IMG/VR virus record: IMGVR_UViG_3300034072_000913
Coordinates: 1 to 31,579 of that record
DNA length: 31,579 nucleotides
Direction: 5' to 3' (one strand)
Source of the DNA: a virus
The notes beneath the pieces were generated by a model that was not told where the DNA came from, searched no databases, and worked only from the letters and a program-made list of their open reading frames with translations. This document shows positions 3,797 to 28,000 of this stretch, one piece after another. Numbering within the stretch: position 1 is the stretch's first letter; each line of letters starts with the position of its first letter. The translations under genes and the position numbers were made by a program.

Positions 3797-3825
3797 TTGC
3801 AATGTCCTCTCTTCTTCTTTAATAT
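3797..3825 (+). promoter_or_regulatory. Sigma70-like promoter for gene at 3910
   Basis: TTGCAA at 3797-3802, a 17-base spacer, and TAATAT at 3820-3825. This predicts a leader of about 78 bases before ATG 3910. Confidence 0.6.
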
Positions 3826-3909
3826 GAATCTTGTCATCGAGAGTGACGTGGGTTTCCACATCATTCCGCAATCAACCAGCAGAACACCACTGCGATCATG
3901 GAGGCCAAA

Positions 3910-4278
3910 ATGGCTAAGAACGAAACCGTCACTACGGAAACAGCCACTCAACCGGAAGGTCAAGTGACTGAAACCGGCGCCGCGACCACCACCGAAGCCG
4001 CCGCCGCTCCGAAGAAGGACAGCCGCTACATCGAGCTGACTCTGAAGGACGGCAGCACCATGAAGCGCAAGGATTACATCCTGAAGCGCTGGGGTGAAAA
4101 GGCCTCGCGTGGCGAAATCGCCAAGGAACTGACGGAGCTGGAAGGCCGCGAAGTGCCGTACCAGATCGTCTTCCAGGCGACGAAGGGTGTCGCCGGTGGT
4201 CCGGATCCGAAGCCTGCCGCTGCTCCGGCTGCTGAAGCTCCTGCCGCTGAGGGCGGCGACGTGGTTGCCGGCGCCTAA
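3910..4278 (+). CDS. Small GC-rich HTH-like protein with Ala/Thr/Pro tails, 122 aa
   Basis: The start at 3910 is chosen over 3898 because GGAGG lies six bases upstream of it. The protein has a disordered N-terminus (Thr, Glu, Ala; residues 1-35), a compact core at about 38-92 (IELTLKDGS, then RKDYILKRWGEKASRGEIAKELTE and VPYQIVFQATKG) and an Ala/Pro-rich acidic tail. The RGEIAKEL segment looks like a helix-turn-helix. Codon use is much more GC3-rich than in neighbouring genes and resembles the genes at 15421 and 21527, which fits strong expression. It has its own promoter and ends in stacked hairpins and an intrinsic terminator. It may be an abundant DNA-binding or nucleoid-like protein; this is inference. 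Confidence 0.8.
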   Translation: MAKNETVTTETATQPEGQVTETGAATTTEAAAAPKKDSRYIELTLKDGSTMKRKDYILKRWGEKASRGEIAKELTELEGREVPYQIVFQATKGVAGGPDPKPAAAPAAEAPAAEGGDVVAGA

Positions 4279-14424: not shown

Positions 14425-15308
14425 ACTGGGGCCAAAACGTCGAACAGCAATACCTGAAGCTGCTTCTGGATCTTCGCCTGCAGGACGAGGTCTATCTTCA
14501 GCCAGATCGTACAGGAACCGGTGTGTATTCGATCTTCGGTGCACAGATCAAGCACAATATGGCTGACGGTTTTCCTCTGCTGACTACGAAGTTCGTCCCG
14601 TTCAAGACTCTTACCAAGGAGCTACTCTGGATGCTCCGCGGTGAGACTAACAACAACAGTCTCCAAGCAGAAGGTGTCCACATCTGGGACGAATGGGCCA
14701 AACCAGACGGTGATCTGGGTCCAATCTATGGGGCTCAATGGCGCAGTTGGCAGGAACCTATTTGGGACAGTTCTGACCTAAATGGAAAAGACTATGTCAG
14801 TTCAATGCAAGGCATTGACCAGATTGCCAATCTCCAGAAGTCTCTGAAAGAAGATCCATTCAGTCGGCGCCACATCGTGTCTGCATGGAACGTGGCCGAT
14901 CTACCTGAAATGGCTCTGGCTCCCTGCCACTGCTTCTTCCAGTGTCATGTGCGTGAGATGCCTAATGGCACCAGAAAGCTGAGCCTCCAACTCTATCAGC
15001 GCAGTGCCGACATCTTCCTGGGTGTACCGTTCAACATCGCCTCCTATGCTCTGCTTCTGCAGATGCTCGCGGACCATTGTGGATATGAAGCCGACCAACT
15101 CGTATTCACATATGGCAACCTCCACCTCTACAAGAACCACTGCGACCAGGCTGACGAGCAGCTAAGGCGCACCACGTTCCCGCTACCTACGATTGTTAAC
15201 AGCCTGGACAAAGCCGACCGGGCAAACATCTGGGAGCACCAGGTCGACGACTATCAACTGTTGGGATACCAACACCATCCCAAGATTGAGGCACCTGTTG
15301 CCGTTTAG
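14421..15308 (+). CDS. thyA: Thymidylate synthase ThyA
   Basis: A 295-residue folate-dependent enzyme that methylates dUMP to dTMP, releasing dihydrofolate. Visible motifs: RTGTG (30-34) for phosphate binding; FPLLTTK (51-57); ELLWMLRG (67-74); the catalytic cysteine C169 in LAPCHCFFQCHV; QRSADIFLGVPFNIASYALL (193-212), where N205 matches the Asn that selects dUMP, so it is not a dCMP hydroxymethylase; and a C-terminal APVAV close to the canonical APVAI. It ends the nucleotide operon that includes Dcd, the MazG-like protein and the DfrB-like domain. A new promoter begins 31 bases after its stop. Confidence 0.95.
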   Translation: MNWGQNVEQQYLKLLLDLRLQDEVYLQPDRTGTGVYSIFGAQIKHNMADGFPLLTTKFVPFKTLTKELLWMLRGETNNNSLQAEGVHIWDEWAKPDGDLGPIYGAQWRSWQEPIWDSSDLNGKDYVSSMQGIDQIANLQKSLKEDPFSRRHIVSAWNVADLPEMALAPCHCFFQCHVREMPNGTRKLSLQLYQRSADIFLGVPFNIASYALLLQMLADHCGYEADQLVFTYGNLHLYKNHCDQADEQLRRTTFPLPTIVNSLDKADRANIWEHQVDDYQLLGYQHHPKIEAPVAV

Positions 15309-15338
15309 GCAAAAGAGTGTTGACCATCAAAATCCATC

Positions 15339-15367
15339 TTGAGGCCCATCGAAGAATTCTATAGTAT
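15339..15367 (+). promoter_or_regulatory. Sigma70-like promoter for gene/RNA/tRNA unit
   Basis: TTGAGG at 15339-15344, a 17-base spacer, and TAGTAT at 15362-15367. CCATC sits directly before the -35, and TGACCATCA lies at 15320-15328, as upstream of the promoter at 3797. It should transcribe the gene at 15421, both tRNAs, the structured RNA and the gene at 16536, up to the terminator at 16877. Confidence 0.75.
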
Positions 15368-15420
15368 ATAAAGCATGAGATCAAGAGATGCAGATGCATC
15401 CAAGAAGAAGGAATGATTCG

Positions 15421-15849
15421 ATGGGCTACAAGGTTGTGAAGGTTTCGTTCGACGCCGATAAGAAGGCTCACGCCTCCTACAAGTCGTACTACGGCACCCG
15501 TACGGTCTCCGACAAGACCTACGAATACAAGTTTCGAGAAGAACTCGACCTCAAGGAAGGTGACTTCTGCGTCGTCGAATCTCCGAGCCATGGGCTCACC
15601 GTGGTGCGTGTCGTCAGCCTCGTCGAATACCAGGAATATTCCGGCGGGCTGAAAGAGATCGTCGACAAGGTGGATGTGTCTACCTACGAAGCCAGCAAGA
15701 AGCGTGCTGCCGAGCTGCAAGCTCTGTCGAACCTGCTGGAGCGCAAGGCCATCGAAGCTCGCAAGCGTCTCGACTGGGAGCAGCTGTTCGGCAACGACGC
15801 CGAAGCCCAGGAGCTCCTGAAGAAGTTCAAGGAGCTCTCCGGCAAGTAA
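15421..15849 (+). CDS. Hypothetical phage protein, beta domain plus coiled coil, 142 aa
   Basis: ATG 15421 is chosen for its AAGGA ribosome binding site; ATG 15388 is in frame but less well placed. The N-terminal half (about 1-75) is beta-rich (TYEYKFREELDLKEGDFCVVES, LTVVRVVSLVEY). The C-terminal half (90-140) is a long charged helix. Similar two-part proteins are frequent in phages, but their role is not known to me. Codon use is GC3-rich, like the genes at 3910 and 21527, suggesting high expression. It heads the transcript that carries the tRNAs and the hammerhead RNA. Confidence 0.8.
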   Translation: MGYKVVKVSFDADKKAHASYKSYYGTRTVSDKTYEYKFREELDLKEGDFCVVESPSHGLTVVRVVSLVEYQEYSGGLKEIVDKVDVSTYEASKKRAAELQALSNLLERKAIEARKRLDWEQLFGNDAEAQELLKKFKELSGK

Positions 15850-15876
15850 CAATTCAGGATCTTCGTGCGACAAGCA

Positions 15877-15972
15877 CCGACTTCGATGGCCTCCTCTGGG
15901 GTAGGCAAGTCGGGCGCCCAAACGGAGAGGTATCGGGGTGGTTTCCCTTCGTCCTTCCAGCCACTCCGATAC
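15877..15972 (+). ncRNA. Structured RNA, 5' domain upstream of tRNA-Thr
   Basis: Two strong hairpins. CCGACTT (15877-15883) pairs with AAGTCGG (15907-15913) and encloses GCC/GGC (15889-15891 with 15904-15906). GTATCGGGGTGG (15930-15941) pairs with CCACTCCGATAC (15961-15972) over 12 base pairs, with one G-U. AGAGGTAT (15926-15933) is also complementary to ATACCTCT (16057-16064) beyond the tRNA, which would enclose tRNA-Thr in an alternative fold. No T-run follows either hairpin, so these are not terminators. Confidence 0.6.
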
Positions 15973-15975
15973 TTG

Positions 15976-16050
15976 GCCACCTTAGCACAGCGGTAGTGCA
16001 GCGGTTTTGTAAACCGAAGGTCAGGGGTTCGAATCCCTTAGGTGGCACCA
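15976..16050 (+). tRNA. tRNA-Thr (anticodon UGU)
   Basis: A full cloverleaf with encoded CCA. The acceptor stem is GCCACCT/AGGTGGC, the D arm GCAC...GTGC, the anticodon loop TTTGTAA (anticodon TGT, reading ACA) and the T arm AGGGG-TTCGAAT-CCCTT. The outermost anticodon-stem pair is G-A, a minor flaw. It lies in a structured RNA tract shared with tRNA-Pro. Confidence 0.93.
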
Positions 16051-16056
16051 ATTCGA

Positions 16057-16183
16057 ATACCTCTAGCGTCGTCTGTGGGGTCACCACGGTTAGAGGAGTA
16101 GTGGCAAAGAGGAATTTGGGTTCGTCCCGCCTTGAACGCCATGGGGTGGACTGTCTCTCGCGGGCTCCGGGGGAGACAGCACC
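16057..16183 (+). ncRNA. Structured RNA between tRNA-Thr and hammerhead
   Basis: CCTCTA (16060-16065) pairs with TAGAGG (16091-16096) around an inner GTGG/CCAC hairpin (16075-16088 region). Further on, GGTG (16145-16148) and CTGTCTC (16151-16157) pair with GAGACAG (16173-16179) and CACC (16180-16183), giving a bulged 11-base-pair stem. No reading frame here has a convincing ribosome binding site or codon pattern. Confidence 0.55.
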
Positions 16184-16185
16184 TT

Positions 16186-16253
16186 CCAAAGAAAGCCTCT
16201 GATGAGTCCCTGGCAAGGACGAAACGGTAGTAACCGTCAGGCACGCCTTTTGG
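16186..16253 (+). ncRNA. Type I hammerhead ribozyme
   Basis: All invariant core positions are present in order. Stem I strand GCCT is at 16195-16198. CTGATGA follows at 16199-16205. Stem II is GTCC (16206-16209)/GGAC (16217-16220) with a seven-base loop. GAA plus A15.1 is at 16221-16224. Stem III is CGGT (16225-16228)/ACCG (16233-16236), closed by loop AGTA, with T16237 as U16.1 pairing A15.1. C16238 is the cleavage nucleotide. The stem I partner AGGC is at 16239-16242. Stems II and III are capped and stem I is open, which defines type I. Beyond an internal loop, CCAAAG (16186-16191) can extend stem I with CTTTTGG (16247-16253), as natural hammerheads do for loop-loop contacts. Predicted self-cleavage is between 16238 and 16239. 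Confidence 0.9.
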
Positions 16254-16412
16254 GAGTAGGTCGAGGCGATTGCATTAAGGCAACCTGGAGAAATGGAGGG
16301 CACTTCGCTGATCCAGAAGTTGTAGGACTGATGCAGTGAGTTCGGTGCGGTCTACGTGATGCTAGCGTCCGCACAGAACTGTCGTACGACACTGTAGCAG
16401 TCAAAACTCCCA
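16251..16412 (+). ncRNA. Closed structured RNA domain downstream of hammerhead
   Basis: A 7-base-pair helix, TGGGAGT (16251-16257) with ACTCCCA (16406-16412), encloses about 150 bases. Inside are TTGC/GCAA with flanking AGG/CCT (about 16264-16286), ACTTC/GAAGT (about 16312-16330) and a long composite hairpin. In the latter, GACTG (16326-16330), GCAGTG (16333-16338), AGTTC (16339-16343) and GTGCGG (16345-16350) pair in turn with CAGTC (16398-16402), CACTGT (16390-16395), GAACT (16376-16380) and CCGCAC (16369-16374). A small GTCGTACGAC palindrome (16381-16390) lies at a junction. The domain begins a few bases after the ribozyme cleavage site. RNA family unknown. Confidence 0.6.
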
Positions 16413-16419
16413 GCTATTC

Positions 16420-16433
16420 GACGGATATCCGTC
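16420..16433 (+). repeat. Perfect palindrome before tRNA-Pro
   Basis: GACGGATATCCGTC is a perfect 14-base palindrome ending four bases before tRNA-Pro. It may be an RNA processing hairpin or a protein site. Confidence 0.5.
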
Positions 16434-16437
16434 ATGT

Positions 16438-16514
16438 CGGGGTGTAGCGCAGTCTGATAGCGCATCTGCTTTGGGAGCAGAGGGTCGTGGGTTTGAATCC
16501 CACCACCCCGACCA
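16438..16514 (+). tRNA. tRNA-Pro (anticodon UGG)
   Basis: A full cloverleaf with encoded CCA: acceptor CGGGGTG/CACCCCG, anticodon stem TCTGC/GCAGA around TTTGGGA (anticodon TGG, reading CCA), and T arm GTGGG-TTTGAAT-CCCAC. The sequence is very close to typical proteobacterial tRNA-Pro, hinting at a Gram-negative host. Confidence 0.95.
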
Positions 16515-16535
16515 ATTTAACCAAGGAGAAGGTAC

Positions 16536-16847
16536 ATGAAGGGTGTAGCTACAGGTCGTCCGGTGATCTACGTCAAGTCGAAGCATCCGCGACGTGGACA
16601 ATCGATGAAGCCGTTCCAGCTGGAACAGTGGGCTCGCATCCGTGAGCAGTCGACTGCCAACTTCTCGTCAATCGAAGACGTCAACCGTGCCATTCGGCGC
16701 CATGAACGTTTCGCCAAGGCGCATCCGACGATGCAGCCCAAGAAGTTCCCGCGCCACATTCGTGAGCGGTATGAACAAGCTATCGCGGTGAAGAAGGGCA
16801 TGAAGAAGCTCGCCGACCAGATTCAAGAGACTGGCCAAACGGCCTAG
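16536..16847 (+). CDS. Hypothetical basic protein, 103 aa
   Basis: An AAGGAGAAGG ribosome binding site precedes the ATG. The protein is strongly basic and helical (HPRRGQSMKPFQLEQWARIREQ, AIRRHERFAKAHP, KKFPRHIRERYEQAIAVKKGMKKLADQIQ), suggesting nucleic acid binding. It starts 21 bases after tRNA-Pro and is followed by an intrinsic terminator, so its mRNA is the 3' part of the tRNA and hammerhead transcript. If the ribozyme cuts, this message and tRNA-Pro separate from the upstream gene. An RNA-binding role is attractive but unproven. Confidence 0.75.
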   Translation: MKGVATGRPVIYVKSKHPRRGQSMKPFQLEQWARIREQSTANFSSIEDVNRAIRRHERFAKAHPTMQPKKFPRHIRERYEQAIAVKKGMKKLADQIQETGQTA

Positions 16848-16876
16848 CATCTACCCACCAGGTAGCCATGAACTAA

Positions 16877-16903
16877 GACCCGCTTCGGCGGGTCTCTTTT
16901 TCT
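16877..16903 (+). terminator. Intrinsic terminator
   Basis: GACCCGC (16877-16883), the stable TTCG tetraloop, GCGGGTC (16888-16894), then TCTTTTTCT. This ends the unit that starts at the promoter 15339. A weaker CTACC/GGTAG hairpin lies just before it (16852-16866). Confidence 0.95.
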
Positions 16904-16914
16904 AAGGAGTTGAC

Positions 16915-17118
16915 ATGTCTGAGAAAGATCTCACCACAGCCGCCACTATTGAGTACCCCCAAGACACTATTGATTCCATGGCCAAACACCTCTACGAGGC
17001 AAAAATGCATCGAGAGCAACACCCAATGGCTATAAACTATCAATATGCCTCACCTGAAGTCAAAGCCCAATGGCAAGCAATTGCCATAGATGCGCTAAAT
17101 TGGGTCGTCGAGCCCTAG
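16915..17118 (+). CDS. Hypothetical protein, 67 aa
   Basis: Family not recognised. AAGGAG precedes the ATG, 12 bases after the terminator. The C-terminal part (SPEVKAQWQAIAIDALNWVVEP) is helical. No promoter is evident between the terminator and this gene. Confidence 0.75.
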   Translation: MSEKDLTTAATIEYPQDTIDSMAKHLYEAKMHREQHPMAINYQYASPEVKAQWQAIAIDALNWVVEP

Positions 17119-17414: not shown

Positions 17415-18924
17415 TGAGCTCCAGAGAGCGCACACTCTATTCGACAAGTTCCGGTTTGATGGCGATGGGACTATCGAGCTCTCTGCCGATCAATATAAGG
17501 TCCTAGACCTCGGGCTCCAACAGCCCCTGTCTACTGCCACTCTCTCGGCCCCACAAATTCTGGCCAATAACTTTGGAGTGAAGAGAAAGCGGTTCGTCCT
17601 ATCTCTCGACAAGGGGATGGGTAAGACTCTCACCTACTTATCCATCATGCAGGGGCTCGGTGCTGAACGCTTCGTGATCTTGTGCACCAAGAATGCCATG
17701 GCCACACAACGCCGTGAGATTCTTAAGTTCTTCCCACAATGGGCCGATAAGTTTACCTTTGTACACGCAAATGGGTCTAAGGGGCGGGCTCTGCGAAAGG
17801 AGCAGTGGGAAAACGATGCGAAGCCCATCAAGATCACCACATATGCGACGTTCATCTCAGACATTGGCCTTCGAACTCCTGGGAGTGGTCAGACCGCAGG
17901 TCCTAAGATCATTCCTGCCAGGTATCTCGGAGGGGCTGCAGAAGGTTTCATCGGTGACGAGTTCCATCGGGTGCTCCGAGGTCGAAATACTAAACTGCTC
18001 CCAGCGCTCAAGGAAGCAGCTCCGCAGGCTCTCATCCTGTCTTCTGGATCTGCGGTCTCCAAAAGCCCGGCGGATCTTTGGCCGGCGCTGCATGTCATTG
18101 ACCATAAGTTTTGGTCATCCTTCTGGAACTACGTTGGCGCGTACTGTCTTGTTTCCGAGGGCCGCTTCGGCAAAAGTATCGATGGGCCGAACCCTGCTCG
18201 AGTACCGGCTTGGCGCCAAGCTATTGGACCTTACTTGTTTCACCGCAAGAAGGATCCACGTGATTATCCGCCCAAGATGAGGAGTTTCTTGGATGTCGAA
18301 CTCGAACCCTGGCAACAACACCTTCATGACCAGCTTCGTGAAGAACTCATGGCTGATCTTCCTAGTGGGGATCTCGCTCTTGCTGGTACCTCTCTCGAAG
18401 CCGTCTACAAGTGCAGGCTCAGCCTCATCTGCCCCCAAGTCCTCGATCCGGCCTTCGGACCTGGTGCCTCTCTCGAAGCCATACTCGACGACTACAGCGG
18501 CTCGGAACTACGCTCGGCGGTCATCAGTACACCCTTCAAGGCCCCCTTTCCCTTCATCGAACGCTTCTTCGCAAGTCACAACATCCCAGTAACCATGGTC
18601 AATGGTGACCTGATCAAGGATGCAGACCATCTAGATGCAACCATCAAACAATGGGAGCAACGTGGTGGAATCTTTCTGCAGACGATCAAGTTTGCCCAGT
18701 CCTATGAACTAGATCAGTTCACTAACGACATGTATATGCTGGGTTATGAATATGATCCAGAAGACAACGAGCAGGCTGAAGACCGCATTCACCGAGAGAC
18801 TACGAAGACGGCCAAAAATATCTGGTACTTAAGGTGCCTAGATACCTACGATGAAGAACACGTGGACATCCTTGTGAACAAGAAAAACGGTCAGCGTTTG
18901 TTATTCGGTATTCCTAGGAGGTAA
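17374..18924 (+). CDS. SNF2-like DNA helicase/translocase
   Basis: A 516-residue superfamily 2 ATPase. Motif I is DKGMGKT (79-85). Motif II is GDEFHR (194-199), with DEFH in place of DEAH. Motif III-like LILSSGSAVSKSP follows. The C-terminal RecA domain ends in NEQAEDRIHR, matching motif VI. Similar proteins are standard in the recombination blocks of siphoviruses, where they are thought to remodel or unwind DNA at forks or junctions. The start lies within the upstream gene, with GGAGAAGG 13 bases before ATG, which is rather distant. The last codons (IPRR) recur as the last codons of the next gene. Confidence 0.85.
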   Translation: MQQSNQQPRLPTPDELQRAHTLFDKFRFDGDGTIELSADQYKVLDLGLQQPLSTATLSAPQILANNFGVKRKRFVLSLDKGMGKTLTYLSIMQGLGAERFVILCTKNAMATQRREILKFFPQWADKFTFVHANGSKGRALRKEQWENDAKPIKITTYATFISDIGLRTPGSGQTAGPKIIPARYLGGAAEGFIGDEFHRVLRGRNTKLLPALKEAAPQALILSSGSAVSKSPADLWPALHVIDHKFWSSFWNYVGAYCLVSEGRFGKSIDGPNPARVPAWRQAIGPYLFHRKKDPRDYPPKMRSFLDVELEPWQQHLHDQLREELMADLPSGDLALAGTSLEAVYKCRLSLICPQVLDPAFGPGASLEAILDDYSGSELRSAVISTPFKAPFPFIERFFASHNIPVTMVNGDLIKDADHLDATIKQWEQRGGIFLQTIKFAQSYELDQFTNDMYMLGYEYDPEDNEQAEDRIHRETTKTAKNIWYLRCLDTYDEEHVDILVNKKNGQRLLFGIPRR

Positions 18925-25489: not shown

Positions 25490-28000
25490 ATGATGTCTGA
25501 GTGCGATCACCGTTGTGCTGATTGCCCCTTCAAGACGAAGACCATCGGCTCGAAAGGGCCGGTGGATTCTCCGTTTGTTATCGTGGGTGAATCTCCTGGC
25601 AGCCGCGAACTAATTGCAGGCAAGCCTTTCATGGGGCCAAGTGGCCTTATGCTCAATCAAGTTCTGAAGGAAGTAGGGTTCGATGATTTAGGCATCGAGC
25701 CTTTCGTCATGAATGCTCTGTCCTGTTACCCAAAGGACAAAGACATCCGCACTATGCGGACAGCCTCCAAAGCATGTCAACAACGTGTTTGGGATACTAT
25801 TCGGCAACACCCACGCAAAGTCATCCTGACTCTTGGTGCTGCTGCTGCCTGGTCTGTAACGAATGACTTCAAGATTGCAGTCACTCGAGATCGTGGTAAG
25901 ATGCTACAGGCCCCAGATCTTTGTTCCGATGGCGTTGTACTAACAGTACACCCTGCGTATCTGATGCGTAATGGTGGCGTGTATCCTTTCTGGAAGAAGG
26001 ACATCGCCTCATCGGTAGCACTGTTCAAAGGTGACATTAATACAGAAGGTGGTTTTATTCCACCAACATGGTTTGTAATTGAAAGCCGTGAGCAGTATGC
26101 TGCCATGGTTAGGAAGCTACACAACATAGTAAAGCCTCCTATGATTACAGGCGACGTGGAAACTGATTCGCTCTATGCACATACTGGGCGCATGTTGATG
26201 CTCGGCATCACCTGGGATGGTGATCATGTTACAATTATCCCAGAAGACATACTCTACGATAACTGGGACATCACCAAAGTCCTGGTTGAGCAGCCAGGTC
26301 CTCGTTGGAATTGGCACAATGGTAAGTTCGACGTTCGCTGGTTTAGGCGCCATGGAGCTCATGCTCGCGTCGACGAAGACACCATGCTGCTGTCATACTG
26401 CCTGAATGAGAATCGCGGTGTTCACGATCTGGATCAGGTTGCTCAGACATACATCAGTGCTCCTGCACACAAGAAGGAAATCGCCAAATACCTTCCAAAC
26501 AAGAACACAAGCTATCGGGTGATTCCGAAGCCAGAACTGCATAAGTATGCAGCTTATGACATTGCAAAGACCCACCGTCAGTGGGCTGTGATGCATGAGA
26601 TGGTGTTCGCAGACCAGTATCTTAAGCGGCAGTATGAAAAGCTGCTTATTCCTGCTTCTAACCTACTTCCCGAGGTGGAAGCTTATGGTGTTCGCGTATC
26701 CATGACTCGTATCATGGAGAATGAGCGTACCCATGAGGCTCAAATCAAGGAACTGGATGCTAAGATCAATGTGTATGCTCAGAAGCATCTGGGCCACGAC
26801 ATTAACATCGGCTCATGGCAACAACTGAAGAAGTTGCTCTATGGGAAGATGGGCCTTGGGCGGATGTCCGATGCCACAGACGAAGATGCTCTGATCCAGA
26901 TTAAGCGTAAGTTCAATCACCCCATTGTCGATCTTCTGCTTGAGCGTCGGGAAATTGCCAAGCGCAAAGGAACCTACATCACCAATCTCCATGACCGTGT
27001 GGATGAGAAGGGTAAGTTCATTCCAGGACGTATTGATGAAGACCAGAGAGTTAGGGCCACATTCAAACTGCACGGGACAACTTCTGGACGTCTAGCAGGG
27101 GCAGATCCTAACCTACTCAACCAGCCACGCGGCCCTATCATCCGAGGGCAGTATGTGGCAGGTAGGGGCAAAGTCTTCGTCGAAGTCGACCTTAACCAGG
27201 CAGAGCTTCGTTCACTGGCTCAGATGTCTAAAGATCCTATTCTGCTTGACATCTATACCAAAAATGAAATCTCCATTCACGATGTAACTACAGCAGCATT
27301 CTTCGGCTCCAAGAAGGAGATGAAGGAGAACGAGAACATTCGAGAAGCTGCTCGCCGTCAGCTCTTCCTTGGGCCGGAGTTCACGGCTGAAGAGATCTAC
27401 AAAGAAGCCAAGATGCGTGGCAAGGCTGTGAACTTCGGTATCGTGTATGGGCGTGAAGCCTTCTCTCTGGCTGAAGAGTTCAACATTCCAGTTGCAGAAG
27501 CACAACGCTGGATCAACACGTGGTTTGAAACTTATCCTGGAGCCAAGAAGTTCATTGAGGAATGCCGTGCTCTACCTAACCAGCGCAAATCAATCACTAC
27601 GGTGTTTGGTCGCAGGAAGCGCCCAGGTGTTGTCTCGAGTGAAAACCTGAAGGGTCTCCAAAACGAATACGCCAACTTCCCACACCAGTCAGTCGCGTCT
27701 GACATTATGCTGACTACATTCATTGAAGTGTACTACCCTCTTCGTGAGCGTTGGGGTGCGTATATCTGGAATGAACTGTATGACGCCATCTACTACGAAG
27801 TCGATGCGGATGCAGGCAAGATTGCAGAGTCTATAGCATATGTTCAAGAAGTGATTACTCGTGTTCCTCGTGAGGTGGGTCTCACACGAGTTCCTTTCCT
27901 GGGTGATGCTAAGATTGGGCTTGACTGGGGACATATGCAAGATTGGGAAGGCAAACATACACTAGAGGAGGTGCTTAATAAGTACGACTGGGTAGATTAA
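25490..28000 (+). CDS. UDG-like domain fused to family A DNA polymerase with 3'-5' exonuclease
   Basis: An 836-residue replicative polymerase. Residues 1-180 resemble family 4 uracil-DNA glycosylase: cysteines C5/C9/C12, C79 and C96 for a 4Fe-4S cluster, GESPG (33-37) and VHPAYL (153-158). The 3'-5' exonuclease has DxE in GDVETD (221-226), N277...D281 and Y353...D357. Polymerase motif A is VEVDLNQAELR (564-574, D567). Motif B is RGKAVNFGIVYG (643-654), with F649 at the sugar-selecting position. Motif C is ELYDAIYYEV (762-771), keeping D765 but replacing the usual His and Glu of HDE by Tyr and Ala. Phage SPO1 polymerase is a known UDG-PolA fusion. It would copy DNA into which DpdA then places preQ0. 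Confidence 0.93.
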   Translation: MMSECDHRCADCPFKTKTIGSKGPVDSPFVIVGESPGSRELIAGKPFMGPSGLMLNQVLKEVGFDDLGIEPFVMNALSCYPKDKDIRTMRTASKACQQRVWDTIRQHPRKVILTLGAAAAWSVTNDFKIAVTRDRGKMLQAPDLCSDGVVLTVHPAYLMRNGGVYPFWKKDIASSVALFKGDINTEGGFIPPTWFVIESREQYAAMVRKLHNIVKPPMITGDVETDSLYAHTGRMLMLGITWDGDHVTIIPEDILYDNWDITKVLVEQPGPRWNWHNGKFDVRWFRRHGAHARVDEDTMLLSYCLNENRGVHDLDQVAQTYISAPAHKKEIAKYLPNKNTSYRVIPKPELHKYAAYDIAKTHRQWAVMHEMVFADQYLKRQYEKLLIPASNLLPEVEAYGVRVSMTRIMENERTHEAQIKELDAKINVYAQKHLGHDINIGSWQQLKKLLYGKMGLGRMSDATDEDALIQIKRKFNHPIVDLLLERREIAKRKGTYITNLHDRVDEKGKFIPGRIDEDQRVRATFKLHGTTSGRLAGADPNLLNQPRGPIIRGQYVAGRGKVFVEVDLNQAELRSLAQMSKDPILLDIYTKNEISIHDVTTAAFFGSKKEMKENENIREAARRQLFLGPEFTAEEIYKEAKMRGKAVNFGIVYGREAFSLAEEFNIPVAEAQRWINTWFETYPGAKKFIEECRALPNQRKSITTVFGRRKRPGVVSSENLKGLQNEYANFPHQSVASDIMLTTFIEVYYPLRERWGAYIWNELYDAIYYEVDADAGKIAESIAYVQEVITRVPREVGLTRVPFLGDAKIGLDWGHMQDWEGKHTLEEVLNKYDWVD

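Follow-up and report, generated by a model that had tools for sequence, protein, structure and literature searches.

We found that positions 16195-16242 of an IMG/VR phage record are a real and complete type I hammerhead motif, located between two tRNA genes. The record, IMGVR_UViG_3300034072_000913, was analysed over its 31,579 bases, and this whole stretch is called the window. The ribozyme itself is of a known kind. With moderate confidence, we propose that this genuine hammerhead cuts the co-transcript at 16238/16239 and opens a structured spacer RNA that would be closed by a pseudoknot.

The hammerhead motif and its surroundings

The + strand of the window carried genes for thymidylate synthase, helicase, exonuclease, Sak4, family A DNA polymerase and ribonucleotide reductase. 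The hammerhead was contained in the 387-nt spacer from tRNA-Thr to tRNA-Pro (Table 1). Its cut fell 188 nt past the tRNA-Thr end (16050) and 199 nt before the tRNA-Pro start (16438), and the distances of 188 and about 199 given in the initial annotation of this DNA were correct. The setting was also as annotated, with the hammerhead between two co-directional phage tRNAs and a cleavage that would split the co-transcript. A single unit from promoter to terminator had been claimed in addition. The terminator part of this claim stood, since a good terminator was present, but a search of the + strand from 15200 to 17050 gave no sigma-70-like promoter.

Table 1. Features of the window, and hammerhead cuts at tRNA-Tyr 5' ends in other loci (positions refer to the window unless a locus is named)
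Feature	Position	Strand	Remarks
Upstream gene	15421..15849	+	142 aa, PHROG 3489, function unknown
tRNA-Thr (UGU)	15976..16050	+	
Possible outer stem I helix	16186..16253	+	CCAAAG 16186-16191 with CUUU(U)GG 16247-16253
Type I hammerhead ribozyme, whole	16195..16242	+	stem I open
Stem I 5' strand GCCU	16195..16198	+	pairs with AGGC 16239-16242
Core CUGAUGA	16199..16205	+	
Stem-loop II GUCC-CUGGCAA-GGAC	16206..16220	+	GUCC 16206-16209 / GGAC 16217-16220
Core GAA (G12 A13 A14)	16221..16223	+	
Stem-loop III ACGGU-AGUA-ACCGU	16224..16237	+	ACGGU 16224-16228 / ACCGU 16233-16237; A15.1-U16.1 closing
Predicted scissile bond C17 (16238) / A1.1 (16239)	16238..16239	+	after GUC; from core homology
Candidate structured RNA	16239..16414	+	5' end at predicted cut; z -2.06; unmatched by covariance model R2
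Hairpin CGCCU / AGGCG	16244-16248 / 16264-16268	+	
Candidate pseudoknot	16251..16412	+	UGGGAGU 16251-16257 with ACUCCCA 16406-16412; 7 pairs
Stem GACUG / CAGUC	16326-16330 / 16398-16402	+	followed by AAA, then the pseudoknot
tRNA-Pro (UGG)	16438..16514	+	
Downstream gene	16536..16847	+	103 aa, no family match
Intrinsic terminator of the unit	16876..16895	+	
Hammerhead cut at tRNA-Tyr 5' end	L155:6483-6715		
Hammerhead cut at tRNA-Tyr 5' end	L115:8399-8520		
Hammerhead cut at tRNA-Tyr 5' end	L017, from 23	minus	

The motif had the invariant core CUGANGA ... GAA, the A15.1-U16.1 pair and an NUH cleavage triplet, here GUC. Stems I, II and III, of 4, 4 and 5 pairs, surrounded the core with stem I open, and a stem I internal loop and a 7-nt loop II, which might make a tertiary contact, were present. 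The invariant bases, three stems and open stem I of the initial annotation were thereby confirmed at exact coordinates. Because the core is intact, self-cleavage is predicted between 16238 and 16239.

For the 68-mer 16185-16252, the fold of minimum free energy was that of the hammerhead. In growing transcripts, stem I was favoured in the ensemble just past 16242 and faded when the 3' end was beyond about 16267. In the full 388-nt context, stems I and II reached only 2-4% in a nearest-neighbour model that disregards tertiary contacts. Stem II was weaker than in the other hammerheads checked. Most of these also scored low for stem I in long contexts, yet they retained stem II better. The strand 16239-16253 had three alternative pairings, namely stem I, a local hairpin and the pseudoknot, and the outer stem I helix and the pseudoknot competed with each other. 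The folding is contested, so that either cleavage takes place during transcription or the copy is inactive.

A chance origin of the window hammerhead was excluded. The consensus core pattern had an expectation of 0.01 in the window. Among 600 dinucleotide shuffles of the window, one match had stems of at least 3 pairs, and none was equal to the real one. A covariance model (R1) was built from 34 other viral hammerheads with the window excluded. It matched the hammerhead with 42.2 bits (E 4.7e-13) as its sole match in the window. Since the members of R1 were picked for having the stems, its pair counts characterise the model only and cannot serve as independent proof.

The Rfam search that had been suggested in the initial annotation did not report the hammerhead at gathering scores. 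A type III match of 23.5 bits appeared only in E-value mode and was mis-registered. RAGATH-1 (RF03152), a phage-type hammerhead class like that of the window, gave only 16.5 bits in this mode against a cut-off of 56.3. The gathering score is a detection threshold and not a defining trait of a type I hammerhead. Two phage hammerheads (L118 and L305) also fell below the Rfam cut-off, with 27.6 and 28.7 bits compared to 34, indicating that this threshold is strict for phage forms. Rfam thresholds overlook hammerhead copies such as that of the window.

Close relatives of the window were not found in IMG/VR using the flanking proteins and the helicase. The two flanking proteins had no relatives there, and the helicase gave nine distant loci, of which none had a hammerhead. 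The nearest named relatives by polA were Brevundimonas phages (45% identity), and MaInes and StAshley had a hammerhead nowhere in either record. MaInes had a gene order in common with the window (thymidylate synthase, gene, tRNA-Thr, gene, helicase), and its locus contained neither tRNA-Pro nor a hammerhead. The MaInes genes adjoining the tRNA were not homologous to those of the window, so all that follows from this absence is that the hammerhead is not a general feature of the broader group. Rhizobium and Sinorhizobium Schitoviridae with tRNA similarity had no hammerhead, and BLAST of the window hammerhead against 50,697 phages gave one insignificant match.

Other elements were observed in the window. 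A 12-bp hairpin with one G-U pair (GUAUCGGGGUGG/CCACUCCGAUAC, 15930-15973) lay immediately 5' of tRNA-Thr and had neither a T run nor an Rfam match at gathering score. A strong hairpin, CUGUCUC/GAGACAG (16151-16179), lay about 15 nt 5' of hammerhead stem I. Its arm is identical, probably by coincidence, to that of stem I in the common CUGUCU family of hammerheads. A decayed second hammerhead was considered at this position and rejected, as the likeness to the CUGUCU-family stem I was confined to the arm. The family A DNA polymerase (25490-28000) had an N-terminal uracil-DNA glycosylase domain.

The spacer RNA and a hammerhead-pseudoknot module

An association of hammerheads with a pseudoknot, and covariation within this pseudoknot, were shown by computation in other phages. 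The motif of the module was a hairpin no more than about 20 nt after the cut with the loop ACCUU-NNGGU-GUA, and AACCNN followed 26-177 nt further on. Members were defined by a hairpin loop CCUU-NNGGU-GUA at most 40 nt from the cut. Scanning with the hammerhead 3' half and the motif gave 94 contigs, and approximately 30 sites passed the full hammerhead test. The loop NN was exactly complementary to the NN of AACCNN in 18 of the 22 non-redundant members. When NN was permuted among the 22 members, 5.3 were expected, and 18 was reached in 0 of 20,000 permutations. The observed pairs were GUGGU/ACCAC, AUGGU/ACCAU, UCGGU/ACCGA, GCGGU/ACCGC, CCGGU/ACCGG and ACGGU/ACCGU. Modules composed of a hammerhead and CCUUNNGGNGUA were near tRNAs in 11 of 21 clusters, compared to 4 of 149 hammerheads without the motif (Fisher P 6e-9), and the scan had made no use of tRNAs. 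A search for the module pattern in the genomes of 84,980 bacterial and archaeal species yielded, among the loci read, nothing beyond chance matches.

In L013, L320, L324 and L338, a minimal module was observed, in which a hammerhead, a short hairpin and an immediate pseudoknot lay directly before a start codon. A permuted tmRNA (RF04321, 136 bits) was located at L154:22-214 on the minus strand. This viral contig carried a tRNA array and a hammerhead module at the end opposite the permuted tmRNA.

The spacer RNA of the window is likely a divergent member of the module. From the cut, the window sequence was AGGC ACGCCUUUUGGGAGUAGG..., with the CGCCU/AGGCG hairpin, CCUU and UGGGAGU. The downstream ACUCCCA was preceded by AAA and the GACUG/CAGUC stem, as in the module family, and the loop segment was complementary to this AA-preceded segment over its whole 7 nt. 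None of 20,000 spacer shuffles contained CCUU followed by 7 nt with an AA-preceded complement; this pseudoknot criterion was chosen after the family was seen. Across both strands of the window (63 kb), the loosest form (at least 5 nt) occurred at only two further sites, which corresponds to odds of about 1 in 700 for the 45 nt that follow the cut. When the pseudoknot test was applied to 254 other hammerheads, it fired for family members and L057 alone. L057 had a sister form after its hammerhead, CCUU-GGAAGU ... AAAACUUCC, with one pair changed on both sides. In addition, the window spacer folded better than its shuffles. Compared to the module hairpin loop, CCUUUUGGGAGUA was present in an altered form, and ACC before UU was absent. 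R2, a covariance model of the module 5' hairpin from which the window was left out, scored the window at only 3.6 bits (E 1.6) and so failed to recognise it.

The downstream part of the module may be kin to the orphan motif COG2908 RNA (RF02939), which was reportedly described by Weinberg in 2017. This is suggested by the sequence of a copy in L247, whose loop ACCUUUCGGUGUA and downstream ACCGA both recur with the module hairpin. In contrast to the module, this copy had no preceding hammerhead. It was a gathering-level match (L247:8322-8366) between tRNA-Thr and tRNA-Met in a 188-kb viral contig, and the pairing ACCGA followed it. The window gave no RF02939 match.

Hammerheads in phage tRNA arrays

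A subset of phage hammerheads is recurrently associated with tRNA arrays. A strict-core scan of IMG/VR gave at least 120 contigs, and among the matches listed, 6 of 137 hammerheads had a same-strand tRNA within 300 nt. Tested by random placement within loci that bear tRNAs, phage hammerheads in general were not significantly associated with tRNAs, and most of them do not lie near one. The general claim that phage hammerheads are tRNA-bound was dropped after this result, and tests of a sub-class and of the module were used instead. The sub-class closest to the window (UCUGAUGAGUCC...GGACGAAAC...GUCAG) was found in 52 contigs by a complete scan. A same-strand tRNA lay within 300 nt in 16 of these contigs and in 9 of 30 context clusters (P 0.003 for the clusters). 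The neighbouring tRNAs were Thr, Asp, Cys, Trp, Ala and Asn, and because they differ, the sub-class is not one inherited locus. The same hammerhead class recurred between phage tRNAs in unrelated contigs. A T-loop-anchored scan, biased by design through its anchoring on the tRNA, gave further hammerhead families starting 9-20 nt after the tRNA CCA.

The hammerhead cut coincided with the tRNA-Tyr 5' end, at offset 0, in L115, L155 and L017. There, the stem I 3' strand was also the 5' strand of the tRNA-Tyr acceptor stem. L155, a 347-kb contig, had two hammerheads in tandem. The second preceded a tRNA-Tyr called by ARAGORN; the first preceded a tRNA-Tyr-like sequence (GCCAGAG...CUUUGGCACCA) that was read by eye and missed by ARAGORN. 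Among 293 hammerhead sites, no further locus had a called tRNA at an offset of -3 to +7, and searching for additional hammerheads with a cut at the start of a tRNA yielded no new case. The hammerheads in L115, L155 and L017 could replace RNase P at tRNA-Tyr. If active, they would yield tRNA 5' ends that are RNase P-free and bear a 5'-OH. This side result may be more important than the window finding.

Known systems, proposed mechanism and alternatives

Phage hammerheads and phage-tRNA theta ribozymes have already been published (PMC3088659, PMC10879173, PMC6155905), and the purpose of phage hammerheads has been described as an open question (PMC6155905). Type I hammerheads (Rfam RF00163) include phage and bacterial examples, and phage intergenic regions are mentioned among them, with no tRNA context found by a text search of that paper (Perreault 2011, PMC3088659). 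The window hammerhead was similar to these in its core, three stems, GUC triplet, open stem I and phage intergenic setting. It differed from them in that it was below Rfam scores, lay between two tRNAs and was followed by a candidate structured RNA. The tRNA-associated theta ribozymes are defined by a cut at most 5 nt from the tRNA 3' end (PMC10879173). Like them, the window has a predicted self-cleaving RNA beside the tRNAs of a dsDNA phage. However, theta ribozymes have an HDV-like fold, whereas the window has a hammerhead fold, with its cut 188 nt from the tRNA 3' end and no HDV-like Rfam match. The open-access papers that were searched describe neither phage tRNA arrays with hammerheads nor the hammerhead-pseudoknot module, nor any tRNA whose 5' end is a hammerhead cut. 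The results offer concrete and testable candidate roles for phage hammerheads, namely opening a structured RNA in tRNA operons and making a cut that is the tRNA 5' end.

In the proposed mechanism, a transcript that spans the 15421 gene, both tRNAs and the 16536 gene would be cut between 16238 and 16239, most likely during transcription. Hammerhead chemistry leaves a 2',3'-cyclic phosphate on the upstream product and a 5'-OH on the downstream product. The upstream product would carry tRNA-Thr, a 188-nt trailer and the ribozyme, and the downstream product would begin at 16239. At distances of 188 and 199 nt from the two tRNAs, this cut would make no tRNA end; it would define where a structured spacer RNA, about 176-199 nt long, begins. 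RNase P, in trimming tRNA-Pro, would make the other end of this RNA and release it. Its purpose might be that of a separately stable small RNA or of a protected 5' end for the downstream RNA. A wider proposal is held tentatively, at slightly less than even confidence. It states that phage tRNA arrays contain a new class of small structured RNA, whose own hammerhead cuts its 5' end and whose loop forms a pseudoknot with its 3' end. The window would be a divergent member, and in some large phages the ribozyme would have moved onto the tRNA-Tyr 5' end, replacing RNase P.

The initial annotation had suggested tRNA processing parallel to theta ribozymes, in which the hammerhead would free tRNA-Thr from tRNA-Pro and replace host nucleases. 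The position between two tRNAs agrees with this, the cuts at tRNA-Tyr in L115, L155 (twice) and L017 indicate that hammerheads can be tRNA end-makers, and several arrays of the tRNA-anchored scan have a hammerhead shortly after the tRNA CCA. For this copy, however, such direct maturation is unlikely. With 188 and 199 nt separating it from the closest tRNA ends, the cut falls outside the theta definition. In type I cleavage, the entire ribozyme stays attached to the tRNA-Thr product, and RNase P and 3' trimming would still be required for both tRNAs. Control of the 16536 gene as a 5' leader was judged quite unlikely. Self-cleavage, constitutive or switched by the competing folds of about 16239-16268, would then set the translation or stability of this gene. 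The three alternative pairings of 16239-16253, the fading of stem I beyond about 16267 and the minimal modules before start codons in L013, L320 and L324 are consistent with such control. However, a tRNA intervenes between the ribozyme and the gene, and RNase P would separate them.

A functionless relic, a drifting copy or an inactive look-alike would agree with the lack of a hammerhead in the nearest named relatives, with the weak stems in long context and with a stem I of only 4 pairs. It is nevertheless improbable, as all invariant core bases and core pairs are intact and chance was excluded. Type I hammerheads also cut unit-length RNA in retrozymes. MaInes has tRNA-Thr and lacks tRNA-Pro at the locus, so that the hammerhead together with the spacer and tRNA-Pro has the look of an additional block, which might be part of a mobile or circular RNA. 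With a single hammerhead in the 31.6-kb window, and with a block that is only loosely defined since the MaInes flanking genes are non-homologous, we regard a retrozyme-like origin as very improbable. The proposed opening of a structured spacer RNA by the hammerhead is preferred.

Two cultured named phages are ready test cases, and each of their genomes had exactly one hammerhead. In Agrobacterium phage OLIVR1 (L284), the hammerhead was at about 3960-4009, and its core began 17 nt after a CCA-ended tRNA-like sequence. In Xanthomonas phage RiverRider, the hammerhead (17809-17858) lay about 395 nt before a cluster of seven tRNAs. The OLIVR1 tRNA-like element (approximately 3820-3948) was unannotated and was not called by ARAGORN; it had a 7-bp acceptor stem, GCCGGGG/CCCCGGC, and an ACCA end. 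Hammerhead copies were also clustered in single contigs. Five near-identical type I hammerheads were present within 4.3 kb of one viral contig (L100:1892-6151), and clustered copies were likewise observed in L036, L069 and L014.
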